Both the position numbers and the translations under genes were made by a program. From Lentinus brumalis (Eukaryota > Basidiomycota > Agaricomycetes > Polyporales > Polyporaceae), in NCBI GenBank assembly GCA_001792895.1, contig MARA01000023.1:372001-436000 (forward strand): a DNA stretch of 64,000 nt. The letters run 5' to 3'. Below are positions 25,927-56,617 of this stretch, in pieces. Under the pieces are notes generated by a model, which did not search any database, was not told where the DNA came from, and was given only the letters and a program-made list of their open reading frames with translations. Each line of letters starts with the position of its first letter. Within the stretch, counting starts at the first letter, position 1.

Positions 25927-27876
25927 TCATAGCTACAGGCGTGCAGAAATAGTCTCAGGACGAAATCCAACCTTCGAGTACTCATTCGCGTCTGCGTTCC
26001 CGGAGTGCGTGGGTAGGAGCTTGAGGTAAGCCTTCCAGGCGGCGTCGGAGACGATGGGAGCGCGAACGTAACGGGCAATCTTCAAGTCGCGGAGGTATTC
26101 GTCCAAGCGGGGCAGAACAGCCGCGCTCGCCTCGTCCTCGCGCATACGCTGCTCAAGACTCGACAGCCCCGCGGATTCCGAGTACCATACGGCGTCGAGC
26201 CGCATGACAGCGCACTCATAGACATCAATGAGTGGCTTGGGGACTGCAGCGTCGATGGCCGCAGAGTATGCAAGGGCGTGGCCGATGGCGCTGACACCGG
26301 CCTCCGCCAGCGGCAGCACGAACGCATTGGCCTTCTCGCTCCGGTGGTCGCCGCACGTAGCGAGGTACTCGCGCGCGGTGCGCAGGAGACCCTCGGCATG
26401 ACGCCAAAGGAGGGTATCCTTGTGAGCGGGCGGGGAATGCTGTATCTTCCCAGCAGAAGCTCGTTGTAGAGGCGGATGCAGAGGGACAATACGTCTCCCT
26501 CAGCGATGATGACCCCGTGGGCGTCGGTCTACGTGGTGTGTGTCAATAAGTCGCGAAGTTCTCGAGTCCAAGATGGACGTACCTCCATGCGCGCCATGAA
26601 GTTGTGCTCGAACGTGCTAGACGAGTTTGTTCAGCCTGTGGAGATGGCTACAAGAGCACAGAAGAAACCTACCCTTGCGCGCCGCACCTCTCAATCACCT
26701 CCCGCATACAAGTTTGGAAAAGCCGGGCGACGCCAGCCTTCGCAATCACGGAGTACGCGTGACGCATGCTTGGTCCCACAGCCTTGTCGACCGACTGCTT
26801 CACCACGGTCGGGTACCAGACGTCGAGGACACGACTGACAGCGACAGCTTGGACCATCGCCCACCGCTGTGTCCAGAAGGACATGAGTGGTACCGGGGTA
26901 GGCGTTTTCCCGACGACGTGACGATGGAGGGAGTAACTGGTGCCAATGTACGCCGCGTGCTTGAGGGCTTGCACCAATGGTCCAGCAACGGCACCAGTTC
27001 CAATTGGAATGCGCCACACCTCGCCCCACCACGCCTGCAGGGGGTTCTTGGGAGCCTCGACGGAGTCTCCGAGAAGAGCGGTGACAGGAAGCAGTACGTG
27101 GTCGAAGGTGGTGATGGAGAAGTCTAGGGGAGCGGTGCCGCTGCGCGTCGGCAGACGGGTGGAGCGGACACCCTTGTACATCTGGACTGTGTCGCAGATG
27201 GGGACGATGAAGCAGCGGCACCCGCGATCCTCACCAGAGACGATGAGCCGAGCCACAACGATGGCGACCTTAGGAATCCCGAAGGAGGGCGTCGTCGCCG
27301 GCATCCACCTATAGAAAATGAGCATCGACGATCATCTGCGAGCAGCCGACTCCCGGCGCAAGCGAGCCACGTACTTGGATGCCTCCTCGCGAGGAGTGTT
27401 CAAGATGAATCCTTCGGGAGTGAGCGTGGCCGTGGTCTCGATGTTGAATGAGTCGAGTCCATGTCCACGCTCGCTGAGTAGGAACAGCCCGACGGTGTCG
27501 AGAGTGAGCATTCTTCCAACGAGGGCCGCAATATCGCCCCGAGTTTCAGCGAACTTGGCTAAGGTCCCGAGAGCCAAGCCCACATGTGCGGCGAGGATGG
27601 TGTAGCAAGCAATATCAAGGGGTAGGCGGGGGTCGGACTGGAGTGCCCAAAATCTAGGTGATGACTCGAGCACGTCTTTGACGGTGAATGCTAACGCAAA
27701 AAGTCAGTCAACTGTCCCCCGATGATAGAATGTCCACAGAGAAAGTTGCACCCACCATATTCGTGCATAAGGAGGCGTGCACGCTTGTAAGACAGAGCCA
27801 CGCGTGCATCTGTGGAGAGGAGCTCGACAGGCTCGTGGAATAGCGGATCGATCTCGAATGTGGCTGCTGGAGTCAT
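25927..27876 (-). pseudogene. Acyl-CoA oxidase-like gene, left copy, frameshifted
   Basis: Start at 27876 (MTPAATFEIDPLFHEPVELL). Exons 27876-27756, 27690-27375 and 27308 onward match the right copy in position and phase. Conserved features are ATLTPEGFILNTPREEASK spliced to WMPATTPSFGIPK, TTFDHVLLPVTALLGD and AWWGEVWRIPIGTGAVAGP, characteristic of FAD-dependent acyl-CoA oxidases that oxidise acyl-CoA to enoyl-CoA in peroxisomes. In the last exon a run of four G (26432-26435, plus strand) corresponds to five C in the right copy. The missing base shifts the frame and gives an unrelated tail ending at 26082, while the old frame stays well conserved down to the stop. This is either a very recent null mutation or a sequence error. 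Confidence 0.82.
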
Positions 27877-28105
27877 GTCGGTGCTGTTACTACAACCTGG
27901 ATGGGACCTTGCGAGCTTTAACTTCTCAGAGTCGAGTCTGACTCAGAAAACCTTTTAGAAGTGTTGAGGGGGACAGAGACGGACACGATCGTAATCAGTT
28001 GCAAGACCATTGAGCCACGGGACTGATTGATAGAGCAGACCGTTCTGTTCTTGACTGGACCTGGCATCGTGCTATCCGAGTGAGCACTGGGAAGAGATGT
28101 CATTA

Positions 28106-28692
28106 CAGCGCTTTGCATAATTCCGTGAACACCGCTGAAATTTCGCGCGGGCGTCTACCTACCATATCGGGAAACGTGACAGTCACTGGCGCCTCCTGCT
28201 GCCTCTGCTCCCTCTTCGAGAACTTGAATTGGATCATGTTTACTTCCTGTGAGCATTAAGATAACCGTAGCGCAAAGGCGACAAGAGGCGAGTGGCGGTA
28301 CAATATGTGAAGGCAAGACCCTTTCCCAGTGACGGACTAAGTACTTACTCCTTTGAATCCTTTCCTTACGTTTGTTATTAGTTGCTCTCCGCTTACGCTA
28401 CTTATTACTAGTTTCACACTCAGCTTACGATAGCTACAAGCGGACTTTACTCTTACTAAGTACGAGTATTAGTGTTCTGTATGATGGTACTTGTATATAC
28501 ACTGGCTGGTGTCTCTCGGAGATCGTCCCGTTACTCGCCTTCCTCCTCGACTCCAACGGAGAGCAAGCTGGGACGAAGAGCTTGCAGGGGCCTGGAGCCC
28601 ACGCGTGCCTTGTGACTGTAACGTTTCCTGATATGGCAGGTAGACGCCCGCGCGAAATTCTGAGCGTGTTCACGGAATTATGCAAAGCACTG
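28106..28692. mobile_element. MITE-like element with about 85-bp terminal inverted repeats
   Basis: The left end 28106-28190 and the right end 28603-28692 are inverted copies with only a few mismatches, sharing CGCGCGGGCGTCTACCT and TTTGCATAATTCCGTGAACA. The outermost bases are CAG...CTG, flanked on both sides by TA (28104-28105 and 28693-28694), as expected for a Tc1/mariner-type target duplication. The 587-bp interior has no transposase-like frame, so it would be non-autonomous. It lies between the left oxidase gene and the bHLH segment. Confidence 0.75.
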
Positions 28693-28983
28693 TAGCAGGA
28701 ATATTCTCTCGTGCAACCGAGTCGAGTTTACGTACTTCCTCTTCCACTTCCCGCCATGGTCGGAACTCCGAAGTGTGGCCGACAGCTTCTACGGCGCGAG
28801 TGGCGGTCGCTTCTTGGCATGAGCCACCTGCGCACGTTGAACGCATGGGCATGGCAGACGGTGCCTGCGAGTCCGTGGACTCGTTGACCATGGCTTGCCA
28901 GTTAATATGCTGATACTTTCGAATTGTCTCATAGTAGTACTTGCTCGTGGAGGCAGAGGCTCCGCATGGATCGTGTCAGGCAT

Positions 28984-29610
28984 TCAGCAGGCTTCTGTTC
29001 CAAGAAAGACGGGGACTGCTCTGAGTCTCCACGAATCGCGCGATTGCGGCTCCATCACGTTGACAGCCCAGATGCGCTCCGAACTCGCTCTCACTGTACG
29101 TCGCCGACGCGTGCTGTAACTGTGAAAGAGTACCCCGATAGTCTCGAGAACGCGCAGTGCGGGGACAGATTGTTTCAGGCCGGTGATCCGAGCGTTAAGG
29201 TTCGTCCGGTATCGTCGCTCGATCGTCGTATGGCTCGTTTTCGGCCGACCAATGACAGTCTGCGTGGGTGGCGGTTGAGGGGCCTCCGCAGGAAACTGGG
29301 CCTGTTCGGCGAGGGGACTAGCGGCAGAAGACGAGGACGAGGACGCCGGGGGAGAGCCGGAGTCCGACGGTGGAGGCGACAGCTTCGCGCTCCGCTTGGG
29401 AGCGGGGACCGGAGTAGGGCTCTGCTTGAGACGGGGAATGGGGAGCTTCGCCTGCCCGCCTGCAGCGGCTAGCTGCTGTACCTGCGCGCTGACCGGAACC
29501 GCGAGGGTGACGCCGGCCATTTGACGGACGCGGTGGGCGAGCTCCGACGCCGGGTCACTGAGGTTGACGTGTGATGGAGGGGAACCCGGCACAGCCGATG
29601 CAGGCTCCAT
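28984..29610 (-). CDS. SREBP-type bHLH transcription factor, partial or degenerate
   Basis: Start at 29610 (MEPASAVPGSPPSHVNLSDP). About 120 residues of proline/serine-rich sequence lead to a basic helix-loop-helix segment: GRPKTSHTTIERRYRTNLNA, then RITGLKQSVPALRVLE. The tyrosine in ERRYR is the residue that marks the SREBP/Sre1 class. Helix 2 and the membrane anchors expected in Sre1 are missing: after LRVLE the frame runs into unrelated sequence and ends at 28984. A stretch near 28880-28910 has a faint, frame-broken resemblance to the helix-2 region. I see a promoter-proximal coding remnant or a gene whose later exons I cannot recover. It sits 159 bp downstream of the left MFS gene, where a cluster regulator might be expected. 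No second copy is visible on the right. Confidence 0.5.
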   Translation of the reverse strand: MEPASAVPGSPPSHVNLSDPASELAHRVRQMAGVTLAVPVSAQVQQLAAAGGQAKLPIPRLKQSPTPVPAPKRSAKLSPPPSDSGSPPASSSSSSAASPLAEQAQFPAEAPQPPPTQTVIGRPKTSHTTIERRYRTNLNARITGLKQSVPALRVLETIGVLFHSYSTRRRRTVRASSERIWAVNVMEPQSRDSWRLRAVPVFLGTEAC

Positions 29611-29768
29611 GACAGGAGACAAAGAGGCTGATGATGAGAACGAACACTGGATTCGATGTCGTGTCCGCATGGACAAGGCATATGTCTTTTGACCCAACAC
29701 GCATCGCGCCCCTTCGAACGATCCCTACATTTCCCACCATCGGACCCATGCAGACGCTGCAACCGGCT

Positions 29769-31820
29769 TCAGAGCTTCTGTGTTCCCCGCGCCTTCACAG
29801 CCAGCTGGCGCGATAGAAGCAGCGTAGCAGCCCCGGCGAGGACGGTGATCTGTTCCAGTTCCAAGAGTAGAAAGCGACAGACAGACCTGCAGTCAATACC
29901 CGCGCACGAGCACTCCGCAGAGAGGAATTGGACTCACGGAGCTGAACAGGATCGGATTCTGCCACTCGTAGAGTGGTGGCTTCAGCAACGCGCCCGATAT
30001 GGGGTTACCCGTGAGGAGTGCAAACGCTACGACGAAGCAGACGACCCCGATGCGTGTCCTGCGCATGGGACGATTCAACTTATAAGCTCTTGACGGATAC
30101 GGGAGGTGCATACCCGACTTCGCCGACATCCACAGAAAAGCTGGCTGCACACGGTGCGATCAGAGAAATGACTGCGGCGCCGACACTGGCAGTCAGTGAT
30201 CGCACGGAATCCAGGAATGAAGATGTGACGTACATCCGCCAGAGAAGAAGCCGTAGAGGATCGCGAATGCGATGAGCGCACCGCTGCTTGTTGCGCCGAA
30301 CATCGCGAAGATGAGGCATCCCGAGATAGCGGTCATGGGAATGATCACTTCGTTAATATGGTAGAATGCATCAGTAGGGTTGCGCCCATATGAGAGCGGG
30401 GTTTATTATGCACCGTTGAACGGTCCCCAGATGTCTGCGAGAAAGTTGGGGACGGTCCGCCCAAAGAGCGATGCGCCGTTGAGAATTGATATCTGCATGC
30501 CGAGCACGAACAAGTCAGCGCAAAAAGATAGAGAGAAGATGTTGACCGCACAGTATAGCGAGCGAGGTTGGGCGAAACGCCATGCACGTTCGCGAAGAGT
30601 TGCAGGTAGAAAACTGCAAGATACGTCAGAAGGCTGCCGTCTGAGTGAAACAAACTCGTACATGGGAAGAACAAGCCCCAGAAGACGAGAAATCCCCTAC
30701 AAGGCTTGTGCGTCAGCGCGGATTTCAATGAGAGGAGGAAGCACTGACCCGAGCGCACAAACCATGAACGGAACGTCAGTGACGATCCGACGAATACTGG
30801 GCGTGAAAGTGGTCTTGCGATGTTTACGGCTAGGCAGGCGAGTGCGCATGAGGAGATTAGCCACGGTCAGGAGCAGAATTCCAAGCAATGCTGCAGCGCT
30901 GCATGTCAAGGGAACAACGGTGGTCAGACAGCGATAAGTGCAGCAAGGAGTCGCTTACCGCACACCCCACGCGAAACCAGCTCTGCCATTGAACAGCTGA
31001 TTCAACATAATGGGATATATGATACCGCCAATGGAGGAGCCTTAAGGCGTGTCGAAGATCAGTACTGAGCATGAAGCGGGCGCAGCAAGCGAGACCTACC
31101 AGCGAATACCACTCCCATGGCTGAAGAGCGTTTGACGCGGAAGTAGTGCGATGACACGCTCAGCGCGGGTATGAACAGGATCCCGTAGGCTATGCCGACA
31201 GCTACGCCTTGGGACAAGATGATCTGGTAGTATTCGTGGCTATGAGCGAGCGAAAGCATGAAGAGGCTGTGAAGTAAAACAGAGTGAGCCTTCGGCAATG
31301 CACGTCAATCGGGAGATACGGACCTAACGACGTAAAGGATGCTGGCTGAGATCATCATCGGATGAAAGTATCCCTCGTCGAAGAGTTTGCCGGATGGCAG
31401 AGAGAGCGCAAACAAGAGAAAGACCTGGACGGAGCCGATCCAGCTAACCTGCGAGGGAGTGCTAGTCCCTGCAAGGTAGACTCGCTGTGAGGTAAGCGGA
31501 TGACATATTAGCACCAGTGAGCGACGATAGGTCAGGAATACATACTGTGTAGTAGTCTTGGTAGACCCCGAACGACTGAATGGCCCCGAAGGTGCAGAAC
31601 AGCACCAAGGACCTGGCGGACATTCCGAACGACTGGTCAGTGCGGATACAGTGACTAGTCGGCTGAGTGCTCACCCTCCGATTACGGTGAGCCAAGCTGC
31701 AAGGCCGCCCTCCGGAAAGTTGGGTACGGCTGGCGGTGACGGTTGAATAGACTCCCTTTCTGATCCATCAAGACCGACGGCGAGAGTGGACGAAACGGGC
31801 TCGAGTTCGACTTTTTCCAT
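29769..31820 (-). CDS. MFS transporter, monocarboxylate type, left copy
   Basis: Start at 31820 (MEKVELEPVSSTLAVGLDGS). About a dozen small exons join in phase; every splice site has a counterpart in the right copy. Membrane helices are recognisable in FPEGGLAAWLTVIGGSLVLF, FGVYQDYYT (the MCT signature region), IGSVQVFLLFALSLPSGKLF, AVGIAYGILFIPALSVSSHY, FLVFWGLFFPFFYLQLF, ISILNGASLFGRTVPNFLAD and TRIGVVCFVVAFALLTGNPI. The C-terminus is ITVLAGAATLLLSRQLAVK followed by ARGTQKL. The fold is the 12-helix monocarboxylate porter family (fungal Mch-like), likely in the plasma membrane and carrying small carboxylates or related molecules. The substrate is unknown. No broken exon found. Confidence 0.85.
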
Positions 31821-32056
31821 GTCGAACAGTGAGGCGGTGGCGAGGGCGGCACCTGGATCAACCGGATGATTCGGCGGGTGGGAGAGGCAAGAGGACGAGA
31901 GGACGACGAGGAGGCAAGCGGACGACGAGAAGGCGAGAGGACGAGACTCCCCAGCGGACGCGACAGAGCATGGGGATCCCGCTCGCAGCAAGTGTTACTT
32001 CCGAATTGTGCAAGTCACAGTCCGGATGTGGCCTGCCTTCGAAATCCTGACACCGT

Positions 32057-32147
32057 CGCTTGTAAGACAGAGCCACGCGTGCATCTGTGGAAAGGAGCTC
32101 GACAGGCTCCTGGAATAGCGGGTCGATGCCGATAGTCGCGATGTCAT
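32057..32147 (-). pseudogene. Relic of acyl-CoA oxidase exon 1
   Basis: On the minus strand this 91-bp stretch reads IDPLFQEPVELLSTDARVAL then SYKR, almost the same as exon 1 of both oxidase copies. The start ATG is still recognisable at 32147, but about four bases are missing right after it, so the frame is lost, and homology stops abruptly before the exon end. It points towards the left MFS gene, 237 bp away, and lies upstream of the left 7TM gene just as the intact oxidase does on the right. Confidence 0.85.
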
Positions 32148-32462: not shown

Positions 32463-32651
32463 CGGACTTGGAGCGCTTTGAACCACAGTTCTCTGTGATG
32501 CAACCGTCGTCCTGTGTGGTTACATCTCTCCCACAGGACGCCGCCGAAGCTATAGACGGACTTGGAGCGCTTTGAACCACAGTTCTCTGTGATGCAACCG
32601 TCGTCCTGTGTGGTTACATCTCTCCCACTGCAGGACGCCGCCGAAGCTATA
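32463..32651. repeat. 94-bp tandem duplication
   Basis: Two direct copies begin at 32463 and 32557. They are identical except for a few inserted bases near the end of the second copy, where CCCACAGG becomes CCCACTGCAGG. No coding sense is apparent. Confidence 0.88.
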
Positions 32652-32713
32652 GATCTCCAGCTGCGCTCTGCGAGCGCCGCCGGCGATGGGGATCATCAGT
32701 CGAATGCTCGAAG

Positions 32714-32748: not shown

Positions 32749-32834
32749 ACGGCCGCAGGTAAGGTTGCTCTCGTGAATGTCGCATACATGGCAATGAACA
32801 AGCTTCTCTTTTCTTCTTGCTCCTACGTACTATG

Positions 32835-32975: not shown

Positions 32976-33275
32976 AGAACCAATGAGAGCAGACTGGACT
33001 CGGTGACCTATCCTGTCCCCGGGCGCTGGTGCGCCGCAGCGATGCTCCGAGTCGGACATGGCCCGAGCGGTTGGTGAGTACTTGAGTCTCCGATTCTTGA
33101 TAGTGGCTTGAGAAGTTCAGTGTCTTGAAACACGCCGTCTGTACACCCTGATTTGCTGGGAGTATAATACGATCATCATGGGACGTTGAGTCCGTGCCCC
33201 TGCCAAATTCTCTTCCTCGCTGTCTGACCTGAGAGGGACACTCCCCTTCGTTCGCTGTCGTGAGCCACATCTACG

Positions 33276-34727
33276 ATGTCCTCGTCGTCGTTCCCGCTGG
33301 ATGCCGCTCAGGTAGCTGCTGGTACGCCCATATCCTGCAATAATGACGTTGCTGATTTATTCCTCCCGTGCGCCAGATTGTGGGGTTGTACATGCAGTCC
33401 ATTGTCTACGGCACGTCCCCGTCGTCGTCTGTCCACGCAGTAGCTCACTGAACCCTGAATGGCAGGGATGGTTCTCATAACTGTTGCGTATGGCTTCCGT
33501 GTCTTGCTCTGGTCTCGCGACGGTCACCTCAAGAGCGGGGCCAGAATCAACTGGATCATGGTCGGGGCCACACTGGCGATGTTCACCATCGCAACGCTGG
33601 AGATGGCTTTAGGGCTCCTACACAATCTTCAAGCTTTCGTCTACTACACAGGTCCTGGTGGCGCGAACGGCGAATTTTCCGACATCTCAAACTGGGTCAA
33701 CGTTATGCGGACGGCGGACTATGTCGCGCAAACGTTCATTGGCGACGGTATCATGGTTTGCACTATTCCTTCGCAGTACCGAGCTCGGACTGACTGCTGG
33801 GCATTCATAGGCGTACAGATGCTACATTATCTATGAGAGGAACTGGAAGGTCCTCGTGGTGCCGGTGCTTCTATGGCTTGCAGAGACAGGTCAGTAACTC
33901 GGCGCGCTCTCCAGGATATCGTTCTGAGCGGTGCGTTCCTTACTCATTAGCGTGCGGTTGGGTCGTCGTCTATATCGAGGCGACGTTGCACACTGCGGCC
34001 ACTCTGAATGAGTCGCGCCTCATGCCGTTCATCACTAGCCTTCTCTCCCTCACTCTTGCAATGACAACAATGACAACAGGTACGAGCCTGATTCTCTCTA
34101 CCTACCAGCCTTAGGAGGGAAAGGCTCATCAGGTCCTACCGACTATCCAGGCCTGATTGTATACCGCATCTTGAAGATCAACGCCGGCGTCGCTGCCCAG
34201 GGCATCACTCGGATTGGCGGGGCTCGCAAGTTGACCCGTGTCGTCCGCATTCTCATCGAGTCCGGGCTCATCTACACTGTCTCTGTTATCGTGTTCTTCT
34301 GCACGTTTCTCGCGTCCAACAACGCCCAGTACGGTGTATCTGACGTTGTATGTAGCATCCTTCGGCTGAAAGTATCATTGGCTGACACTGCGCTCTCGTA
34401 GGTTGTACAAGTCATTGTAAGCCAAATTGGGATCACCGCTTGTCATCCGCTGACCTGCTACAATCCCTCTATCAGCCAATCTCTTTCACGCTCATTCTGA
34501 TTCGCGTAGACCAAGGCATCGCGATCGAGAACCGCACAGTCCCGTCAGCTATCCAGAGGCCCATAACGTTCCCCGGCAGGTCTGGCATGTCCGGCGCTGA
34601 TCTGGGACCGGATACCGTCATGGCTAGGGCTCATTTGTCCGGTGGTCAGAGCGACGCGTACATGATGGAAGACATGGGCAGTGACCGCGATGGATGGAAG
34701 GCTGGCCAATTCGAGCCGGTGGTTTGA
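33276..34727 (+). CDS. Seven-helix membrane protein of unknown function, left copy
   Basis: Start MSSSSFPLDAAQ at 33276, followed by IVGLYMQSIVYG and GMVLITVAYGFRVLLWSRDG. Hydrophobic segments recur through GATLAMFTIATLEMALGLL, the TDYVAQTFIGDGIM-like region, AYRCYIIYERNWKVLVVPVL, ACGWVVVYIEATLHTAAT and SGLIYTVSVIVFFCTFLASN, giving about seven membrane helices. The cytoplasmic tail ends in SDAYMMEDMGSDRDGWK, closely matched in the right copy. This belongs to a large basidiomycete family of receptor-like 7TM proteins recognised by the YRCY motif; no ligand or function is established. The intron after IVYG begins with GC rather than GT. Confidence 0.85.
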
Positions 34728-35664: not shown

Positions 35665-37696
35665 ATGTTCAATGACTTAGTCCCCCTGATCCTTACCGCC
35701 CTCAGCATCCTCTTTTCCTTCGTCGTCTACTGGTTTACTCGTTCTACTGCTCGTCTTCCACCAGGACCCCGCGGCCTGCCCGTTGTCGGCAATGCTCTCC
35801 AAATGCCACGCGGACACGAATGGCTACGCTACGCCCAGTGGGGCGCCGAATATGGTTTAGTCCTCACCTTTGGTTGGGTCATAGTACATACGTTCTGATG
35901 AGCCGTTTGGACAGGTCCTCTCGTATACCTCCGTCTGTTCACCCAGAATGTCTATGTTGTCAATGCGTACTATGTCGCCTCCGAAATCCTCGACAAGCAT
36001 TCGGCCAAAACCGCTGACAGACCAGGAGCTCAGTTGATGGTTGGCGAGCTGTGAGTTACACGTCCACTTTCTAGGCCAGCTCTGCATCTCCCCTAAAACA
36101 GCATCGGCTGGAACAATGGCGTCGCCTTTGCTCGCGCCAGTCCCCGCCACCGCGAGTATCGAAAGCTACTCAGTACCTCTCTCAACACCAATGCCGCTCG
36201 CCGCCTCTCTCCTCTGCAACAGTCCTCCGCGCTTCAATTCCTGAGAGCCCTCCTCGAGAGCCCTCAGCGGCTACGCGACCATATACGCGCTTCGATTGGC
36301 AGCAACACTGTGAACATCGTCTTCGGCGAGCAAGTCTCCACGCCCGATTTCGATTACATCGCACTCGCCGACGATGCGCATTACAAGTTCGCTCTAGCTG
36401 CTACGCCGTATCGTTATGCTGTTGACTTCTTTCCCCTATGTGATCTTCCAGCTTGAATGTAGTCGCTGCAGAAAGCTGACTGTTCTCCTGCCATAGTGAA
36501 ACACCTGCCTTCCTGGTTCCCTGGAGCAACTTTCAAGCGTCAAGCCCGTCAGTGGCGAGCAGAGCTGGAGCGCTTGGTAATCACACCCTACAATATTGTG
36601 AAAGAACGCGCAGTGAGTATGATACCACTCCGGACTAGTATCGAACCGTTCTCGCGCAACAGGTGACATATTTCGTTGCAGGCCCGCGGTGTGGCGTCTC
36701 CGTCCTACGTGTTGAACTGCATGGGCGACTCGTCCGCCGACACACTTGCGATCGCCAAGGATCAAGCCATCATGTGGACGGCCGCGAGCCTCTACACTGG
36801 AGGAGCTGACACAGTAAGAGTAGCGAACTCCGTGAGCCTTTGACGCCTTGCTCACTGAAGTACCCTTGCGTTAGACGATCGCCGGCATGTTGAGCTTCTT
36901 CCTGGCTATGACACTCTATCCGGATGCCCAGCGGAAAGGACGAGAGGAAATTTTGAACAAGATCGGTACTGAACGCCTTCCGACGCTCGACGACAAACCG
37001 TCCTTGCCGTATATCGAAGCCATAGTGAAGGAGGTCTTGCGGTGGAACAGCATCGCGCCGTTGGGTATGTCGCAGTCTTCGGCATTCAATCTATTGGGCA
37101 ACAGACTCAACCCCAATCCGCTCTCATTAGGACTTGCTCATCGCACGACCGACACAATCATCTACAACGACTATGAGATTCCTGCTGGTACTGTCGAAAG
37201 TCAATCATCCTCCCTAAGCACGCTGACTGACAGCAACTCAGGGTCGACTATTATCACGAACATCTGGTGAGCAATCCTGCTGTCGTACCTGCTCAGCTGG
37301 ATACATATATAGCCGAGTATTCCAGGGGAATGATGCACGACGAGGGCATGTACAAGGATCCTTTCACCTTCAAGCCGGAGCGCTTCCTCGGCGCGTCCCC
37401 TGAGCATGACCCGACAACGATAGCCTTCGGTTTCGGGCGCCGCGTCTGCCCTGGGTCGCACCTCGCGCTCCAGAGCCTGTTCATCAACATCGCCCTGGTG
37501 CTCGCGACGATGACCATCGAGCCCGACGGAGAGAAGCCCTATGTGGAATATACGAGCGGAGTCATCAGGTGCGTTCCCTTTGCGTTATCATGTAACCTGA
37601 AATAACGAATCTTGGTCGGTCAGTCAACCGGAGCCGTTCAAGTGTCGAATCTTGCCGTACAGTGAGGCTGCGAAGGAGCTCATCTTGCAGGACTAA
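35665..37696 (+). CDS. Cytochrome P450 monooxygenase, intact copy
   Basis: Ten exons (35665-35854, 35915-36050, 36102-36439, 36497-36612, 36682-36813, 36875-37064, 37131-37187, 37242-37266, 37326-37568, 37624-37696) give exactly 499 residues. The N-terminal anchor is VPLILTALSILFSFVVYWF, followed by the proline hinge LPPGPRGLPVVGN. The I-helix oxygen motif is GGADTT, the K-helix ExxR is KEVLRWN, and the heme-cysteine loop is FGFGRRVCPG. This is a microsomal class II fungal P450 on the ER, reduced by CPR. It resembles the expanded Agaricomycete families annotated loosely as O-methylsterigmatocystin oxidoreductase-like, which says little about the real substrate. It is convergent with the permease, 121 bp apart. 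Confidence 0.93.
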
Positions 37697-37817: not shown

Positions 37818-39921
37818 TTATCTGCCACAATTACACCGCTCTACCGCTCTAAATGCAGGATAGACGACTGCAGCAAGTACAAACCCGACAATGATCCCAA
37901 TGTCGCCCGTGCCAGCGTTCGCAATCGGCCCAGTATACCAGACCTGCGCCATGCAGGGTACAATGATACCACAGGCACACAAGAAAGCCATGATCGCCGC
38001 GAGACCGAGAGGAAGCTCTCTAGGCTTACACCAATCAGAGAGGTCGTACCGCGTCCAATCGTTCTGGCGAAAGATGAGGTGCTCGACGATGATGATGGCA
38101 GCAAAGATAGTGCTCCAGTACCCAATGACGTTCAGGATGTCCACGAAGGTGTCGTAGAAGTGCACCGCGCCGACGATGGCAACCGGGATCAAGCTACGAC
38201 GATATGTTATCAGAGACGAGACTTGCGCTGCATGTTTACAAGAACGGGCGGTGCTTACATGGCTTCGGATACAACCGTGTAGACATAGCGGGGGACGCGT
38301 GCGAACCAGGCGTGGATTGTCATAAAGCTCGACGCGAAGGTGTACATCGTGGGCGCACATGCGCTCGGGATGAAGAGCGCGATGAGAACCGTCAGGAACT
38401 TGCCGAACCCGCCCGCAGGAGAGAGGACCGCCTCGACAAGTCCGCCGACGCTGTTGCCGTTGTCAAAGCCGGCTTCCCATGAGGGCACCGCTGGTGCTGC
38501 AGCTGCAAAGGCTGCGCCCAGCATGTGCGCGACAAGCTGGTTCGTGCAGCAGTCAACGACGTGGCCGACAGTGACAAATACGGGACACTCACGCTTGCGG
38601 TCAGGAATCCGGCGTAACTATACAGGAACACCCTCGTGCTATGTAGGCCCAAGTCAGTAACGCGAAGACATCGGGGTGTGATCGCACGTAGTTACCTGGA
38701 AGCTTTGCTTGTGTGATATACGCCGTAATCGGGTGTCATCATGCACCAGCTGATGACGCTTGACCCAACCGTGGTCGCGTATGACAAGATGGATGCCGCC
38801 GACGCAGGCGGGCCTGGTGGTATGTTGCTCCCGAGGTGCTTGCCGCCAATCCCGAGCATGACGATGAAAGCAATGACGGCTGGAATCCACGCTACCGTTT
38901 CATACCTATGGTGTCCCGATCTAGATCGGTTCACTGGGGCAAAGCAGCATATTCGCTCACCAGTGTATGACCTTGTACCCGAAGAACGTGACCTGTATAC
39001 GATGTTCAGTCCAGGCCGTCGAGCGAGATGAATACCAGAACGACCCACCACCAGTGAGATAACTCCAATGATGACGATTCCCAGGGTATCGTTGAGGCGG
39101 TCAGAGACACTGGCGAGAGTCTGGCCGCCTATAATACAGTTGAGAATCAGGAAGCCTTGCATGGAGAAGACGGTGAAGGCGCTGGGGATGATTGAGCCAT
39201 AGTACCTGCAGCGCGGTGGTCACCAACCAAGCAACAGATATGACATGAACGCAGGACTTACCCCACGAGTATCGCGCCAGCACCATGGAGCGCATTCCAA
39301 GCTTAGGTCCGAAGACGGCACTAAGTATATCGTGTTAGCACCATATACAAGCTTAGACGGGTGCAGAGTACTTACAAGTAGGCCGGAATGGCGCAACAAC
39401 TATGATAGTCAGCGATGTTACAGCGCGCACGCTCGCGAGCTACGTAAGATGTACTCACATGAGGTCAACCACCAGGAGAATCAGGAGCGAGTCCCGCAGT
39501 CCAAGGCCGAAGAACGCAGGTCCAGCAGTACCTGTTCCGAAGCTAGCCATAGCATGATCAATACTATGTCACTTCCGTCCGCAGAAGTGTTCGATACGCA
39601 CCTCAGGATGTTCACGTTGGCAGAGAACCACACGAAGAACATCTGATACAACCTCGTATCCTTCCTGTCCCCGGGGAGGACGGGGTCAATCCTGGAAGAG
39701 CGTCAGTCAGTATTCAGACCACCGCAGTAAGTGGGAGCAATAGCAATGAACGCGCACCCGTTCGTCTCGATTCCCCAGCGCGCGAGGAAGTCGGTAGTCG
39801 TCTTGAACCATCGTTGCGTTCGTGGTAGTGTCGTCTCCTCAGTGCCGACTTGGTGGTCGTGACCATTAGCAGGCTCGTCCGCGGCTCTGCTCGTCTTCTC
39901 ATCTTCGACGGACAGCCCCAT
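37818..39921 (-). CDS. NCS1 purine/cytosine-type permease, intact copy
   Basis: Start MGLSVEDEKTSRAADEPANG at 39921. Multiple exons join in phase, for example LVVDLI to CCAIPAYL and SLVVTFFGYKVIHW to YETVAWIPAVIAF. Typical NCS1 features are RWFKTTTDFLARWGIE at the N-terminus, QMFFVWFSANVNILSFGTGT in helix 1, FGPKLGMRSMVLARYSWG, and the repeated hydrophobic helices that follow. The C-terminal part reads EHLIFRQNDWTRYDLSDW, then LPLGLAAIMAFLCACGI and WYTGPIANAGTGDIGIIVG. The family (yeast Fcy2, fungal Fcy21) takes up purines and cytosine with protons at the plasma membrane; other members carry uracil, allantoin, thiamine or pyridoxine, so the substrate is open. Confidence 0.9.
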
Positions 39922-40329: not shown

Positions 40330-41305
40330 CTACTCGGGCAAGATAAGCTCCCTCGCAGCCTCGCTGTGCGGCAGAATCCGGGACTTGAACGGCACCTGTT
40401 GACTGAGCACGACTCGTCAGCACAAGGTACTCCAGAGCATTGACACGAAATGCACCTGATCCCCCGGCTCGGCGTATATCCCCACCTCGGACTTCTCCCC
40501 GTCCGGCTCGATCACCGTCGTCGCGAGTACGAGTGCGATGTTGATGAAGAGCTCTGAAACGTGAGGTGTAATACGGGGGAGACGCGGCCCCGAAGTCAAA
40601 CGCGATCGCAGTAGGGTCTAGCGTAGCGGCATGGGATGGTGGCCAAAGCGAACTTGTCCGCAAGCGCGATGTAGTCGATATCGGGCCGTACTAGAGAGCT
40701 GCTCGCCAGAGACGATGTTCACAATGTTGCTGTAAATCGAGGCGCGTATGTGGTCGCGCAGCTGCTGTCGGCTGTCGACTGTCGAGGCTCTCAGGAACTG
40801 AAGCGCGGATGACTGCTGTGCTGCAGAGAGGCTGCGAGCAGCATTGGTGTCAATGAACCTGCTGAGTAGTTTGCGATACAAACTCGCGATGGCGAACACC
40901 AACTGGGGCACAGCAACACCCTTGTTTCAGCGTGTTCTGTTGCGGATGAGCTCAATAGAGCTGGACTGGATGGCGAGTACGCACAGCTCGCCCAGGGGCC
41001 AGCATCAACCGGGCCCTTGGTCGGTCTGTCGGCGGAGTTCGGTGACTACTTGTCGAAGATATCGGAGGAAATGTGGTAGGCATTGAAGACATAGACATCC
41101 TGCGGGAACAGACGGAGGTATACGAAAGGACCTGGACAAGATGGTCATCGGAGACTGTAAGTATCCGTATAAGTAGCCTGCCAAGGGTTCATGAAGAGGA
41201 TACTCACCGTATTGAGAGCCCCACTGAGCGTAGCGTAGCCATTCGTGGCCGCTTAGAATCTGAAACTTTTTACGACAGGGAGGCCGCGGGCAAACCTAGT
41301 AGGAC
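40330..41305 (-). pseudogene. Cytochrome P450 pseudogene, right copy
   Basis: Read on the minus strand, pieces of the P450 at 35665-37696 occur in order: GHEWLRYAQWGSQY, then GPFVYLRLFPQDVYVFNAY ending in FDK plus a stop codon (41048-41046), then YRKLLSRFIDTNAARSLSAA and LRDHIRASIYSNIVNIVSGE. The sequence then jumps straight to a ruined heme region (DPTAIAFDFG without the cysteine loop), FINIALVLATTVIEPDGEK, and the C-terminus VPFKSRILPHSEAARELILPE. The I-helix, ExxR and heme cysteine are absent, so roughly 0.9 kb has been lost internally. The surviving exon ends remain quite similar. Confidence 0.88.
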
Positions 41306-42012
41306 TCGCGAAGAGGAACATAACGCAAGCGTTCAGCGCTCAGGTTGGAAGCAAGCGTGTTGACTGTACACATGTGAAGCTAAGATTTGGGTGAACGCGC
41401 AGAGAACGACCATGGCTATCGAGCTGGGCACGATGGAAGCATGCTGCCAGTTTTTGCAACAGTCGTGCGGGCGACGCCAGCGAAAGGGTTGTGGACACTG
41501 GAAGGGTCCATTGGGCACTGCAGCATCATGATCGTGACGGTGCAAGTAGAGCGCCCGAGCGGCGTGTTGAGACAACACCGCGCTCTTCTCGCTCCCACGT
41601 CGCGCAGCCCTTCATTCTGGTCTATCGGAAGTATATCACCTCCGACCTTCTCTCAGGAGTCGCCAGAAGTTGATCCTGAAGGGAACACCATGCGCAAGGC
41701 GCGCCGCGGAGGTACGCTGGGAAGCTGCCCTCGGAGTCTCACCAAACTTCTGTGTCTTCAACAGGTCTTCGACCGCCCATCCGCCGGTTAACGGCATCGT
41801 TTCGCTACTTGTAATGAGGCCCGCTACCGGCACAGAACGCATCCCATCAGGCTGCCAGGCTGCATCGACGTGCGTGGCCATAGGAATTGGCTCCGAATTC
41901 GCGTACTCGACATCCGCCCACGACTCGTCCCCTTGCCTTCTCCCCCTCCTCTCCTTTCCTCGGCCTCCCCTAGTCTGCTCGGACCCAGCCCTTGGCTACT
42001 GCAGAGGCCAGA
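41306..42012. other. Intergenic, upstream of right MFS gene
   Basis: A 707-bp gap holding the promoter of the right MFS transporter. I found no clear match to the region upstream of the left MFS copy, so the duplication may stop at or near the coding start. No gene seen. Confidence 0.4.
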
Positions 42013-44098
42013 ATGGAGAAACTAGAACTCGAGCCCGCTGCATCCGCTCGGGCTGTCGGTCCTGACGGCGACTCCGAGGTCGAATCCCAAGACACCAAAC
42101 TACCTCCAGCCGCACCCGCCTTTCCTGAGGGCGGCCTTGCCGCTTGGCTCACCGTGATCGGAGGGTGAGGGCTCACTTGGTAGTCTCTTTCTTTCCGCAC
42201 CGAGTCAGCATGCCCATCAGGTCCATGGTCCTGTTCTGCACATTCGGAGCTATACAGTCGTTCGGCGTCTACCAGGACTACTACACCGTACGTTCTCGAC
42301 TCGACCTCCGCGTACTGCTGCTGATATGTTTTTTGTACTCCAGAGAGTCTACCTTGCGGGGACTAGCACTCCCTCGCAGATTAGTTGGATCGGCTCCGTC
42401 CAGGTCTTCCTCTTGTTTGCGCTGTCTTTACCTTCCGGCAAGCTCTTCGATGAAGGATATTTCCACCCCATGATGATTGGAGCCAGTGTTCTATACGTCT
42501 TCAGGTCTACGTCTCGGGAGTTTTTTATCCCGTGCTGCCCAGCTTACATTTCTCCTGCAGTTTGTTTATGCTCTCGCTGGCGCGTAGTCATGAGTTCTAC
42601 CAGATCATCCTGTCCCAAGGCGTAGCTATCGGGATAGCCTACGGGATTTTGTTCATACCCGCACTGAGCGTCTCGTCACATTACTTCCGCGCGAAGCGCT
42701 CTTCGGCCATGGGGGTGGTGTTCGCTGGCAAGTCTCCTGTTCTGCGCCCAATAAATGCGTAGTACTGATCATGGTCGAATTCAGGCTCTTCAATTGGCGG
42801 TGTCATATACCCCATCATGCTGAACCAGCTCTTCAATGGCAAAGCCGGTTTCGCATGGGGCGTGCGGTAAGCGACCTCTTGCTACACCTCGAGTTGTCGC
42901 CGTCTGACGACTGTTGCTTTCTCGACATGCAGCGCTGCAGGGTTCCTGGGAATCGTGCTGCTGACCATTGCTAATCTGCTCATGCGTACTCGCCTGCCTA
43001 GCCGCAAGCAGCGCAAGACCACTTTCACTCCCAACATGCGACGCATCGTTACTGACGTGCCGTTCATCATATGTGGTATTGGGTGGGTTTCGCCCACCAC
43101 CTCTCTCTGAATGATAGGCTTACCGGCAAGCTTTGCAGAGGCTTTCTCGTCTTCTGGGGCTTGTTCTTCCCATGTACGGCCTCAGCTCCCTTAACACGGT
43201 CCATGTTTCCGCCTGCTCACGTATCTTGCAGTTTTCTACCTTCAACTATTCGCGAACTTGCATGGCGTCTCTCCAAATCTCGCCCATTACACCGTACGGC
43301 TGAAGTATTCTAGCTTCGCGCTTTAAGCTGACGTGTGTGTGACCGGCATTCAGATATCGATCCTCAACGGCGCGTCGCTCCTTGGTCGGACTATCCCGAA
43401 CTTCCTCGCAGACGTCTGGGGACCGTTCAACGGTACATACGTCCTGCTTGTGCCCTATCATGCATGCGCAATGATGCTAATGCACCTTTTCCAACGCCTT
43501 GCAGTGATCATTCCCATGACAGCAATCTCGGGCTGCCTGATTTTCGCCATGTTCGGCGCAACGAGTAGTGGGGCGCTCATCGCATTCGCCATCCTGTATG
43601 GCTTCTTCTCTGGCGGATGTGAGTCGCGCGGTCTTCGCTCCGAGTTCTCTGCGCTGTCAACGATCGGCTGATAACAGACACGCTTCTCAGTCATATCTTT
43701 GATAGCACCCTGCGCAGCGAGCTTCTCTGTGGATGTCGGCGAAGTCGGGTGCGCATCTCTTCGTCTTGTGCCTGTCTAACGCGAGTTTGGAGCACATATT
43801 GTCTAACATGTTCTCACATTCTCGTGGATAGGACCCGCATCGGCGTCGTCTGCTTCCTTGTCTCGTTTGCGCTGCTCACGGGCAATCCCATCTCGGGCGC
43901 GCTTTTGAAGCCTCCGCACTACGAGTGGAAAAATCCGATTCTGTTCAGCGGTGTGAGTCTAGTGTTTCTGTGCGCTTGGTGTGGAGTGACTGACGAGGGG
44001 TTCTTGTCTTTGGGCAGATCACCGTTCTCGCGGGAGCTGCTACGCTGCTTTTGGCGCGTCAGATGGCGGTGAAGGCACGGGGAACGCAGAGGGTCTGA
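42013..44098 (+). CDS. MFS transporter, monocarboxylate type, right copy
   Basis: Start MEKLELEPAASARAVGPDGD at 42013; the C-terminus is ITVLAGAATLLLARQMAVK followed by ARGTQRV. All splice junctions checked join in phase: GG/GSMVLF, YT/RVYLAG, VF/SLFMLSL, WGVR/AAGFLG, GIG/GFLVFW, FP/FFYLQLF, YT/ISILNG, FN/VIIPMT, SGG/FISLIAPC and EVG/TRIGVV. The protein is very similar to the left copy, with the acidic N-terminal tail the most variable part. It is predicted to be a functional 12-helix plasma-membrane porter of unknown substrate. It is convergent with the right 7TM gene, unlike the left pair, which is divergent. Confidence 0.87.
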
Positions 44099-46011: not shown

Positions 46012-47475
46012 TCAGACCATCTCAAGTTCGCTAGTTTTCCATCCGTCGCGGTCGTTGCCGATGTCCTTCATCATGTATGTCTCAGTCTGAATCTGGATGC
46101 CGGGGTAGTTGCTCGAAATCGGAGTGCCTTGGGACGGGTCGGCGTCGGGCATGCTACGCCTCACAGGGAAGGTGATGGGCTTTGGGAAGCTTGTGGATTG
46201 GTGGACGGCGTAGTTTTCCGCAGCGGCGCTTTGATCTGCCCGGATGATAATGAGGACGAAGGTTATTGGCTATGTTGGGGCGGTTGAACATCAAGATCAG
46301 CAAAGCGGACGAGCGGCAAGCTGGACTATGGCTCACGATGAGTTGAACGGTCTACAGAAGCAACGGGAAGTCAGCGACTATACTGCACAGGGTAATGAGC
46401 AGGAGGATGCAACGTACAACGTCAGACACGGGATACTGAGCGTTGTTCGATGCGAGGAACAGGGAGAAGAAGCAGACGACGGAGACGGTGTAGACGAGCC
46501 CAGACTCAACGAGAACGCGGACGACCCGAATTAACCGTTGGTTCCCGCCAACTCGTGTCATGCCCTTGGAGGCCACGCCAGCGTTGATTCTCAGGATACG
46601 AAATACGATCATGCCTAAGCAGTCAGCCGAACGAATGAGCCATCCTTGCGCGCATCGTACACAGTGCGCCACGTACCTGTTGTTATGGTCGTCATTGCGA
46701 GAGTGAGGGAGAGAAAGGCGGTGATCCACGGCACGAGGCGCTGCTCGTTCAATGTGGCCGAACTGTGTAATGTTGCCGTGATATAAACGGCGATCCAGCC
46801 GCACACTGATGAGACGGAACATTCAGCTTAGACGACTTGAGGTAGGGCGCGAGCTAATCACCTGACTCCGCAAGCCAGAGAATTGCCGGTACAGCGACGT
46901 ATCGCCACTTCCTATCATATACAACGTAGCATCTGTAAGCCTAGGAGTACGCAGAAATTAGTCCTGGCCTAGTTCAAAGAACCAGAGGACCAACCATGAT
47001 AGCGTCGCCGATGAAAGTCTGCGCGCCGTAGTCCACTGTCTTCATGACGTTGACCCAGTTTGAGATTTCGGCAAACTGACCCTTAGCACCACCGGGGCCG
47101 GTGTAGTAAATGAAGGCTTCCAGGTTGAGTCGGAGCCCGAAAGCCATCTCTAGCGTTGCGATGGTGAACATGGCAAGGGTAGCCACGACCATGACCCAGT
47201 TGATGCGGTCCCTGCTCTTGAGGTACCCGTCTCGAGACCAGAGTTGAACACGCATGCCATACGTGACAGTGATCAAAACCATTCCTGGAAACTTCGAGTC
47301 AGCCCGCCGAGGTATGGACATGACGACAACGGGAACGCACCGTAGAAGATGGCTTGCATGTACATTGCAATCAACTGGTTCATAGAAGGTATTCATTAGT
47401 AGTGTAGCCGCGTCAGGACGTGGACTTTCCGTGCAGTACCTCAGCGGTATCGATCGGAAGCGACGAGGACGCCAT
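46012..47475 (-). CDS. Seven-helix membrane protein of unknown function, right copy
   Basis: Start MASSSLPIDTAE at 47475, then LIAMYMQAIFYG and GMVLITVTYGMRVQLWSRDG. It parallels the left copy throughout: ATLAMFTIATLEMAFGLRL, AYRCYVVYDRKWRYVAVPAI, VCGWIAVYITATLHSSATL, SGLVYTVSVVCFFSLFLASN, then after two short introns PITFVLIIIRADQSAAAENY and a tail ending in TYMMKDIGNDRDGWKTSELE. All junctions checked are in phase and the GT donor after IFYG is normal. It appears intact and more diverged from its partner than the MFS pair. It is divergent from the right oxidase gene across 1.04 kb, probably the ancestral arrangement. Confidence 0.84.
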
Positions 47476-48512: not shown

Positions 48513-50461
48513 ATGACTTCGGCAACTACAACTGGGATTGACCCGCTGTTCCATGAGCCTGTCGAGCTCCTCTCCACAGATGCGCGCGTAGCTCTGTCTT
48601 ACAAGCGTGCACGCCTCCTTATGCACGAATACGGTCCGTGCAGCTTACCCTATGGACTCTCTATCGCTACCTTACGGTCCACTGACTTTGTACATTAGCG
48701 TTCACCGTCAAAGACGTGCTCGAGTCATCCCCTAAATTTTGGGCACTCCAGTCCGACCCCCGCCTACCCCTTGATATTGCTTGCTACACCATCCTCGCCG
48801 CACACGTAGGGCTCGCCATCGGAACGCTCGCGAAGTTCGCAGGCCACAGGGCCGACATCGCGGCGCTCGTTCGGAGCTTGCTCAACTTCGACACTGTTGG
48901 AGTGTATCTGCTCAGCGAGCGTGGACACGGACTCGATGCATTCAACATTGAGACCACGGCCACACTCACTTCAGAAGGATTCATCCTGAACACTCCGCGA
49001 GAGGAGGCGGCCAAGTACGTTGCTACCGAATCTGCAAGTACTCTACTTACCGATGCGACCTTATTTTATAGAATGATGCCAGCCACTACGCCTTCCTTTG
49101 GTATTCCTAAGGTCGCCCTCGTGATGGCTCGGCTCATCGTCTCCGGCGAAGATCGCGGAAGTCGCTTCTTCATCGTCCCCATCTGCAACAAATTCCAGAT
49201 GTACCGTGGTGTCCACTCCACACGTCTGCCGACGCGCAGCGGCACCGCTCCCCTAGACTTCTCCATCACGACCTTTGACCACGTACTTCTTCCTATCACC
49301 GCTCTTCTCGGAGACTCTCTCGCGGCTCCCAAGAACCCCCTGCAGGCGTGGTGGGGCGAGGTGTGGCGCATCCCCATTGGAACTGGTGCCGTTGCTGGAC
49401 CGCTTGTGCAAGCCCTGAAGCACGCGGCGTACATTGGATCCAGTTACTCCCTCCATCGCCACATTGTCGGCAAGACGCCTACTCCGGTATCGCTCATGTC
49501 CTTCTGGACACAGCGGTGGGCGATGGTTCAAGCTGTCGCTGTCGCCCGTGTTCTCGACGTCTGGTACCCGACCGTTGTGAATCAGTCGGTCGACATGGCT
49601 CTGGAACCAGGCGTGCGTCATGCTTACTCCGTCATCACGAAGGCGAGCATTGCCCAGCTTTTCCAAACTTGCATGGGGGAGGTGATGGTTAGGTGCGGCG
49701 CTCAAGGGTAAGTTCTTCGTATCCTCTTGGTAGCAACGCCAAAAGCTGAGTAAAACCCCTTAGTACATTCGAGCACAACTTCATGGCGCGCATGAAGGTA
49801 TGTTTTCCTGGTATCAGCATCGAACGTACCACGGATCTCTGACATGTCTCTACCATAGAACGAAGGCTACGGCGTGGTCATTGCTGAGGGAGACATCCTC
49901 ACACTCTGCATCCGCCTCTACAACGAGCTTCTGCTGGGAAGATACAGCATTCCCCCGCCCGCCCACAAAGATACGCTTCTCTGGCGTCATGCCGAGGGTC
50001 TCCTGCGCACCGCGCGCGAGTACCTCGCTACGTGCGGCGATCACCGGAGCGAGAAGGCCAACGCGTTCGTGCTGCCGCTTGCGGAGGCCGGTGTCAGCGC
50101 CATCGGCCACGCCCTCGCATACTCGGCGGCTATCGACGCAGCAGTGCCCAAGCCCCTCCTTGACGTCTATGAGTGCGCTGTCATGCGGCTCGACGCCGTC
50201 TGGTACTCTGAGTCCGCCGGTCTGTCGAGCTTTGAACAGCGTATGCGCGAGGACAAGGCGAGCGCGGCTGTTCTGCCCCGTCTGGAGGAATACCTCCGCG
50301 ACTTGAAGATTGCCCGTTTCGTTCGCGCGCCCATCGTCTCCGACGCCGCCTGGAAGGCTTACCTCAAGCTCCTCCCCACGCACTCCGGAAATGCGGACGC
50401 GAATGAGGACTCCAAGGTTCGGTTTCGGTCTGAGACTATTTCTGCACGCCTGTAGCTATGA
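48513..50461 (+). CDS. Acyl-CoA oxidase-like enzyme, intact right copy
   Basis: Exons 48513-48633, 48699-49014, 49072-49707, 49764-49797 and 49859 onward. The start is MTSATTTGIDPLFHEPVELL. The central domain has ATLTSEGFILNTPREEAAK joined to MMPATTPSFGIPK, then ITTFDHVLLPITALLGD, with a helical C-terminal domain after it. These mark the FAD-dependent acyl-CoA oxidase/dehydrogenase superfamily. If a final 39-nt intron (50417-50455) is removed the protein is 556 residues and ends NEDSKL; if it is kept, 567 residues end TISARL. Both endings fit the PTS1 consensus, so a peroxisomal location is likely. It is shorter than classic Pox enzymes (about 650-700 residues). It oxidises an acyl-CoA; the chain type is unknown. 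Confidence 0.86.
50417..50455 (+). other. Putative 39-nt terminal intron that switches the C-terminus
   Basis: The stretch begins GT and ends TAG, sits in phase 0 and has no stop before its last codon. Splicing gives a C-terminal SKL; retention gives ARL. The donor is weak (GTTCGG). The same 39-nt layout occurs in the left copy at 25933-25971. Confidence 0.5.
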
Positions 50462-51181
50462 ACTTGCCGCATAAATGGTCCTCGATGTTGGTGAGTTGGT
50501 TCGAGTCTGCCGCCTGCGATCACTGCTGACATACCTGATTACACGCAGTACGCTATCCAATGTGGAGTGGAGACCCACATCTTCGAGGAAGATACAGATG
50601 CCCCCGGGTCGCGGGACCGAGATAGAGTGAATGGTGATAAGCCGAGTGACATGTAGACTACGGTTCCCTGCGTCGCTTTTTTTGTTGGTATTACCGGATG
50701 TATTTATGGCATAAGGGCTATCGCGTATACTCGACCGGCATGGAAGATGCACAGAGTCAACGCGACAGCTGATCGCCCACGTCATTGAGGTATCTTCGGA
50801 GGTCGGCACTGACGGGAGCTTGTCTCCTCCCTTCACTATGCAAGGGAGTCGCTGAGTGTCCAGGACTGTCGCGAGGGTACTTACGTTCGTCGATCGCGTA
50901 AATCATTTCGGGTCACGCTTGACCGTAACGTGCAAAGGTTCCTGTGCGAAGCCACTCGTTCAAGTCCTATTCGGTCACGCCTCATAGGAGGAATCAATCA
51001 AGAGACTGGGCGTTCGTCCTTGTACTGATTGGTGGAGGAGCGCGGTTTGAGCCAGGTGAAGAGAGACACGACGCTCCGCCCCCAGGCCAGCTGAGGCTAC
51101 AGAAAGTCTCACGTCTCGTACTCTTCCACGACCTAAGAGGGTCGAAGGTCGGTCAGCTAAGACGGCTGATGCAACGGGGAG
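50462..51181. other. Intergenic gap
   Basis: About 720 bp between the right oxidase and GPI3, convergent. The first 140 bp resemble the corresponding flank of the left oxidase copy. No gene seen in the rest. Confidence 0.45.
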
Positions 51182-53136: not shown

Positions 53137-53151
53137 CTTTTACCTAATTAA

Positions 53152-53365
53152 TTTGTCATCTTGGCTTTTACTCTTTTGTTCGCCCATATATGGTTTAACA
53201 TCTTGTACTGATATTACGTAACTGCTTCGGCAGGAGTGCCGCACGCTCTTTTGCCCCATTTGTCATCTTGGCTTTTACTCTTTTGTTCGCCCATATATGG
53301 TTTAACATCTTGTACTGATATTACGTAACTGCTTCGGCAGGAGTGCCGCACGCTCTTTTGCCCCA
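53152..53365. repeat. Perfect 107-bp tandem duplication
   Basis: Units 53152-53258 and 53259-53365 appear identical. The repeat starts 15 bp after the tRNA-Val gene and ends about 195 bp before the oxysterol-binding protein start, so it lies in that gene's upstream region. Confidence 0.9.
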
Positions 53366-55456: not shown

Positions 55457-56338
55457 CCGACATGATTTATGACATGACCCATCTACGTTCTGATTCCCCG
55501 CGAACGCTTCCTACACATGCAGCAGTGCTACTTGTACGATAGTTTATACCATGCACGCCCTCCCTCAACCCCTTCGTCGCTTCTCGCACACAGACTTGCG
55601 GTCGGCTTGTACGAACTGGAATGGAGGCAGTTTAATCGTCTCGAGTTGCATACTTAACACATCAATCGTGTGTATATACATCGCAATGCTTTCTTAAATA
55701 GACATGTTCGAGGTTAGGAGGACTGACTGAGCTCGTCAGCGTGTTGGTACGTGCCCGGTTCCCTCCCTGGCGTTTGGTGTGACTGACTGCAGACATCGGT
55801 CTTAAGTAGGTCGGCGATCAGTCGGATACCATACGCAAGGCCTGAGGCCTAGGAATGCCTTTAACGTGCGCATATTCCTTGGAAGGTCGGCTGATCAGAC
55901 GCTCTCCGCCTTCCGCGCTGACTCGCGCCGATCGACTTGTCTTGAAGCGACATGGAGACATCCAGTCCTCGACGAAGGTCTCAGTTCGCCACTCGCTTTG
56001 ACAGGTCACTCTTCGGAGTGTAAGCAAATGCCGAGTTGTCTGCTTCTCTTCAAATGTATGTAAGCTCACTGCTGTCTCTAGATTCCTAGATCGCGGGGGA
56101 GGGAGACATCGTCCCATTGAAGCGTTCTCTCAGTGAATCGAGTACTTACCCGAGTACTCAACACCCTCATGATGCCTCATCGCTACATGGCCGCAAGTGG
56201 GCGTTTCGCTTTCTCACTTGAGACATTCGCGTGGCGCGCGTGAGGTGTCTAGGGTCCCATAAGTACCTGCGAATACCTGCGAACCTTAAAACGACTTCCC
56301 AAGCGCCTCTCCACCTTCCCTTCGCCCACAACAGCAGC
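55457..56338. other. Intergenic gap
   Basis: About 880 bp after the oxysterol-binding protein gene, leading to the permease relic. No gene, RNA or repeat recognised. Confidence 0.4.
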
Positions 56339-56617
56339 ATGGATACGTCGGAAGATGAGAAGACGGGCAACATCGTCGACGAGTACTGCGTTGGTGATGC
56401 TATCACTCGGAAAAGTTGGTTCAAGACGGCTACTGACTTCCTGGCCCGTCGTGGCGTGGAACTCCCTCCTGGTGTATCCGTCATTATGACATTCCTATGT
56501 TCTTGCGGTATCATTGTGCCTTGCATGGAACAAGCATGGTACACCGGCCCCGTAGCGAACGCGGGCACAGGAGATATCGGAGTTCTGGTAGGATCCGCAC
56601 CTGTATCCCTTGTTTAG
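56339..56617 (+). pseudogene. Internally deleted relic of the NCS1 permease
   Basis: A 92-residue open frame begins MDTSEDEKTGNIVDEY, continues SWFKTATDFLARRGVE and then passes directly into LPPGVSVIMTFLCSCGI and WYTGPVANAGTGDIGVLVG. The first part matches the N-terminus and the second the C-terminus of the permease at 37818-39921; everything between, including nearly all membrane helices, is missing. The last residues are frame-shifted relative to the parent. It cannot be a transporter. It lies 6 kb beyond the right oxidase copy, with GPI3, tRNA-Val and the ORP gene in between. Confidence 0.88.

Follow-up and report, generated by a model that had tools for sequence, protein, structure and literature searches.

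Results

The window analyzed here is a 64-kb stretch of Lentinus brumalis DNA (C53:372001-436000 in the contig numbering of the genome searches) with a G+C content of 56.9%, from a genome of 53.4 Mb in 136 contigs. For Polyporus brumalis KCTC46459, a PacBio/Canu draft is described as 53 Mb (abstract) or about 56 Mb (text), in 138 contigs and with 56.99% G+C (PMC5511909). Where a named L. brumalis or P. arcularius protein is listed as orthologue, the nearest one is 87-98% identical to the protein encoded in the window.

As Table 1 shows, genes for an acyl-CoA oxidase (ACOX), an MFS porter, a 7TM protein, a cytochrome P450, and an NCS1 permease each occur twice in the window, with every pair on opposite strands. 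The original prediction had proposed these five inverted pairs and had named a self-comparison as their test; blastn of the window against itself returns inverted matches for all five families, with E-values from 0 to 2e-9. The matching exon structure that it described is also seen in our spliced models, which were obtained with a purpose-built gene-finding program and by spliced alignment of proteins to DNA and which give left and right exon counts of 5/5 for ACOX, 13/13 for MFS, and 8/8 for 7TM. The arms were said to be shuffled as well as inverted. Indeed, from the axis outward the left arm reads P450, 7TM, MFS, ACOX and the right arm P450, MFS, 7TM, ACOX, a difference of one swap. Because a mirror order equally close is found in 1/6 random orders, the order by itself is weak evidence. 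Inversion of 5/5 pairs has a chance probability of 0.03, assuming independent orientations.

Table 1. Gene copies and gene pieces, in window positions unless given on contig C53, with the extent and DNA identity of the self-blastn match between paired copies
Feature	Position	Strand	Structure and state	Self-blastn match
ACOX left	25933..27876	-	5 exons, one-base shift in C run near residue 395	25785-27920, 84% over 2.1 kb
MFS porter left, MCT-like	29769..31820	-	13 exons, open	29760-31820, 74%
Stray ACOX exon 1 piece, 81 bp	32056..32136	-	96% identical to left and 91% to right copy over 71-74 bp	
7TM left	33276..34727	+	8 exons, open	33151-34367, 71%
Cytochrome P450 left	35665..37696	+	10 exons, open	35768-36372 and 37408-37688, 71% and 73%
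NCS1 permease left, purine-cytosine type	37818..39921	-	11 exons, open	37897-37994, 73% over 98 bp
P450 right, remnant	40334..41434	-	6 shifts and 1 stop in best spliced alignment; middle exons gone	40338-41290
MFS porter right	42013..44098	+	13 exons, open	42013-44107
7TM right	46012..47475	-	8 exons, open	46398-47586
ACOX right	48513..50455	+	5 exons, open, C-terminal end -ARL	48469-50602
NCS1 right	56339..56617	+	N-terminus fused to C-terminus, protein middle gone	56483-56580
P450 third	C53:321004-323077		Nearly open, one-base shift in C run; second, less certain shift near N-terminus	
7TM third	C53:343255-344732		Open	
ACOX third			188-bp stub adjoining third P450	

Decay of the copies is uneven: the right P450 and the right NCS1 are gutted, and both MFS genes and all three 7TM genes are open. 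The spliced models agree with the prediction that the open P450 and permease lie on the left and the open oxidase on the right. The broader statement that each family retains one intact copy is correct within the window for P450 and NCS1 and fails for MFS and 7TM, in which both copies are open. For ACOX the statement fits the open right copy, and the left copy carries a single shift in a short C run. Long-read drafts often contain errors in single-base runs. The left ACOX shift and that of the third P450 are each one base within a C run, and as such a lesion is indistinguishable from an assembly error, the left ACOX, the lesion of which is possibly a long-read error, is not counted as surely dead. 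The right NCS1 copy is located past PIG-A-like and oxysterol-binding-protein genes; unlike it, the L. brumalis relative P0129 is full-length. The 7TM protein matched no Pfam family, and its relatives P0136 and P0166 have no Pfam match at E 1.

Several smaller features lie among these genes. A MITE-like element with inverted ends of 83 bp (92%) adjoins the left oxidase at 28104-28694; near-full copies occur on C72 (89%) and C60 (88%), and short end copies on C134 and C97. Between the left MFS and the left 7TM, at 32463-32653, is a near-perfect tandem duplication of ~95 bp (97%). A bHLH gene next to the left oxidase was considered as a cluster regulator and rejected, being a 488-bp piece (29141-29628) of a longer frame on C50. 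The piece, which we take to be SREBP-like, matches a stretch of a 684-residue open frame (C50:697202-697689) at 99% identity and is a recent gene-fragment copy.

The prediction of exactly two copies does not hold. A third set, split between C53:320736-323077 and 343255-344732, sits upstream on this contig, at a distance of 27–51 kb from the window and 53-77 kb from the outer end of the left oxidase gene. In genome-wide searches with each protein, further close copies are found only on this contig, though the searches scored best candidates only and the copy counts are therefore lower bounds; the ACOX pieces ranking next lie on C2, at 38-52% identity. An inverted F-box stretch of 306 bp (93%; C53:320430-320727 and 342366-342671) flanks the third P450 and third 7TM, so an inversion may have split the third set. 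A 0.18-kb stretch at window 28694-28876 is 74% identical to C53:345384-345551, which adjoins the third 7TM gene.

The ACOX profile matches the PDB ACOX 5k3g with an E-value of 1.7e-23, the predicted model has a pLDDT of 87, and the 32 best Foldseek rows are all ACOX. Glu378 is invariant in 42/42 aligned relatives and aligns with the Glu of 5k3g. The predicted model, which includes the extra C-terminal helical part, thus shows an ACOX-like fold with the active-site glutamate conserved. Acyl-CoA dehydrogenases come close behind ACOX by Z in the VIA list, and it is the aligned length, not Z, that separates them; the Pfam ACOX/ACAD matches are under their cut-offs. Compared with known peroxisomal ACOX (Yarrowia ACOX1 5y9d, C. 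elegans ACOX-1 5k3g, and human ACOX1 7q84), the window protein is 14-17% identical and ~100 residues shorter (566 vs 660-700). The last three residues of the right copy (-ARL) may point to a peroxisomal location; among relatives of 540-600 residues, 29/77 end in a canonical peroxisomal tripeptide and 32/77 in -AML.

The MFS porter scores 80.8 bits with MFS_1, against a cut-off of 33.4. Its best NCBIfam match, the monocarboxylate transporter model TIGR00892, spans most of the protein, but at 51.8 bits it is far under the cut-off of 586.1, so that substrate and direction are not readable from that match. Among the matches listed, relatives in Grifola and Leucoagaricus are named "riboflavin transporter MCH5".

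The original prediction read the five families as a catabolic-type cluster, and the distribution of the genes in other Agaricomycetes supports part of this. ACOX and MFS are contig-mates in 18/27 strains with both listed and in 17/26 outside Lentinus and Polyporus, where ~0.8 would be expected assuming 40-Mb genomes; several of the 17, taken singly, are weak evidence owing to the large size of their contigs. In the control, NCS1 lies on the ACOX contig in 3/19 strains, each of them a Lentinus or Polyporus, and in 0/16 outside these genera. A shared contig was scored as an equal "longest contig" value in both rows, for named rows only, which leaves out unnamed, Rhizoctonia, and Ceratobasidium rows (the latter two with no ACOX row listed). 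The protein tables behind the counts list the best 120 of 276, best 120 of 685, and best 120 of 653 matches. Consecutive ACOX and MFS locus tags are found in Hohenbuehelia grisea (HGRIS_014067/014066), Agrocybe chaxingu (NLJ89_g5345/g5344), and Leucocoprinus birnbaumii (NP233_g4801/g4800). The two genes are on separate contigs in 9/27 strains, some of which may mix assemblies: Agrocybe pediades, Collybiopsis confluens, Gloeopeniophorella, Gyrodon, Lentinula edodes, Lanmaoa, Mycena leptocephala, Mycena venus, and Serpula S7.3.

For P450 and 7TM, the close relatives among the matches listed are all Lentinus or Polyporus. Within these genera, and among the matches listed, L. tigrinus ALCF2SS1-7 has two sets, with ACOX, MFS, 7TM, and P450 on contig 399598 and ACOX, MFS, NCS1, and four 7TM rows on contig 2199977. 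In strain -6, contig 1559795 carries ACOX, 7TM, and P450, and contig 173252 carries ACOX and 7TM. Relatives of ACOX, NCS1, 7TM, and P450 occur together on a 1,086,255-base contig of L. brumalis, and C. squamosus carries two ACOX on one contig of 174,334 bases, again among the matches listed.

Silent divergence between the copies is similar for MFS, 7TM, and P450 (Nei-Gojobori dS 0.76–0.89) and lower for ACOX. The left/right values are 0.76 for MFS, 0.89 for 7TM, and 0.38 for ACOX; comparisons with the third set give 0.86 for the left P450, 0.76 for the left 7TM, and 0.89 for the right 7TM. With dN/dS of 0.08-0.25 across the compared copies, these values point to old duplicates that are under constraint where they are open.

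Trees were built from chosen relatives (ACOX 12, MFS 6, 7TM 9, P450 4, NCS1 5). The left ACOX groups with P. arcularius (100/100) and the right ACOX with L. brumalis (100/99), and the fork uniting left and right is weak (81/85). Two L. tigrinus MFS join the left MFS against the right (98/97), and the third 7TM and third P450 each group with L. brumalis (100/100 each). For NCS1, L. brumalis (94/92) and L. tigrinus (100/100) join the right copy, and P. arcularius (100/98) joins the left one. The NCS1 copies therefore lie in different clades, contrary to the prediction that all five families were duplicated as one unit. In a larger NCS1 tree of 22 rows, from which the short right NCS1 was omitted, the two NCS1 groups and a Ganoderma/Fomes group are unresolved, which suggests that the pair dates back to roughly the time when those genera split. 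Judging from these trees, the NCS1 pair seems older than the rest and was probably not made together with them.

The low ACOX dS is also patchy. Silent differences between the left and right copies cluster at codons 76-151, where they reach 50%, against a minimum of 10% across windows of 60 silent codons; in a shuffle test (5,000) the clustering gives P 0.0002 for ACOX, with MFS (0.26) and 7TM (0.97) both even. When this genome is compared with C. squamosus, 20 sites group the ACOX copies within species, and 2 and 1 sites group them otherwise. The 20 sites show a gap that is not significant when it may fall anywhere in the protein (P 0.10); for that stretch, which was chosen afterwards, P is 0.006. 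Single-segment ACOX trees resolved little. Gene conversion would fit the lower, patchy dS, and partial conversion may account for both the patchiness and the within-species grouping. Uneven codon constraint could mimic the signal, and the 20 sites are also expected if each species duplicated ACOX independently. Conversion through cDNA was considered and dropped, as intron identities (ACOX 66-74%, MFS 60-82%, 7TM 59-78%) differ little from random expectation (mean 59%, maximum 75%) and have no discriminating power.

Discussion

The neighbourhood is real, and it is older and messier than first described. We propose that the two inverted sets and the partial third one, all versions of an ACOX–MFS–7TM–P450 neighbourhood, likely arose by block duplication followed by gene-by-gene erosion, with a predicted acid uptake and oxidation core; we place the probability of this reading at about 0.6. 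An old ACOX–MFS pair would have gained P450, 7TM, and NCS1 neighbours in Lentinus and Polyporus, and this neighbourhood would have been duplicated, likely as a block and perhaps in a single event. The duplicates would now be eroding gene by gene, with ACOX homogenised by gene conversion and NCS1 present as a neighbour of presumably older origin. As for function, the porter may import, rather than export, a carboxylic acid, the CoA ester of which ACOX is predicted to oxidise in the peroxisome, and the P450 may act on the same compound. Block duplication is supported by the five inverted pairs, the matching exon counts, the third set, and the similar dS of the MFS, 7TM, and P450 copies. Against it, the order is not a clean mirror, NCS1 looks older, and ACOX looks younger unless it was converted.

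An alternative is that the genes were duplicated one by one within a rearrangement-prone stretch, with the mirror look partly a coincidence and no working unit. The swapped order, the different age of NCS1, and the 1/6 of random orders that are equally close all favour such local duplications, as do the stray ACOX piece, the SREBP-like fragment, and the MITE-like element among the genes. However, all five pairs are inverted, the MFS, 7TM, and P450 copies have similar dS, and ACOX–MFS contig sharing in other genera is far above expectation, which makes this account a serious competitor but an unlikely one.

A secondary-metabolite cluster, in which P450 and ACOX tailor a product for export by the MFS porter, is less probable still. 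A P450, an oxidase, and an MFS porter are usual tailoring parts, and the P450 weakly resembles terpene-oxidising families, at 80 bits far under the cut-off of 700. However, visual inspection of the 21 gene models in the window reveals no recognisable backbone synthase (Pfam was run on 9 window proteins), and the ACOX–MFS pair is spread wider than the P450 among the matches listed. Finally, although this is a draft long-read assembly of 136 contigs with one-base differences in C runs, a misjoin of two haplotypes or unrelated pieces is highly improbable, since arms with 71-84% DNA identity and dS of 0.38-0.89 are too divergent for haplotypes and since ACOX, NCS1, 7TM, and P450 also share one L. 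brumalis contig and two ACOX one C. squamosus contig.

Beyond duplication and erosion of the neighbourhood, we tentatively consider that a short divergent ACOX and an MCT-like porter may have been linked from the early Agaricomycetes onward, with later gains of a P450, a 7TM protein, and a purine-type permease in Lentinus and Polyporus, and that the arms may serve as conversion partners that sustain the oxidase; this is possible rather than likely. If true, the locus would represent an undescribed mushroom uptake-and-oxidation unit whose mirror-image arms keep the oxidase alive by conversion while the other duplicates rot. In the titles and abstract openings available, with subscription literature mostly outside, we found no paper on the ACOX–MFS pair or cluster and no substrate assigned to the pair.

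Fungal metabolic gene clusters grow and shrink through duplication and loss, and duplications and losses of the sort seen here are otherwise familiar in fungi. Such clusters likewise have adjoining transport and oxidation genes and piecemeal loss of copies. Unlike them, this locus has two inverted arms and a third set on one contig, a homogenised-looking oxidase pair, and no backbone enzyme that we recognised. Its interest lies in the widely linked ACOX–MFS pair, a small and testable gene pair across mushrooms, together with the conversion signal. It also offers a natural experiment in which growth, multiplication, and copy-by-copy loss of a neighbourhood can be followed on a single contig.

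Two further features are found on the right side of the window. A perfect 108-bp tandem duplication (53151-53365) lies immediately upstream of the oxysterol-binding-protein gene. Next to the NCS1 remnant, at 56660-63041, are two head-to-head genes, presumably for the beta and alpha subunits of methylcrotonyl-CoA carboxylase.
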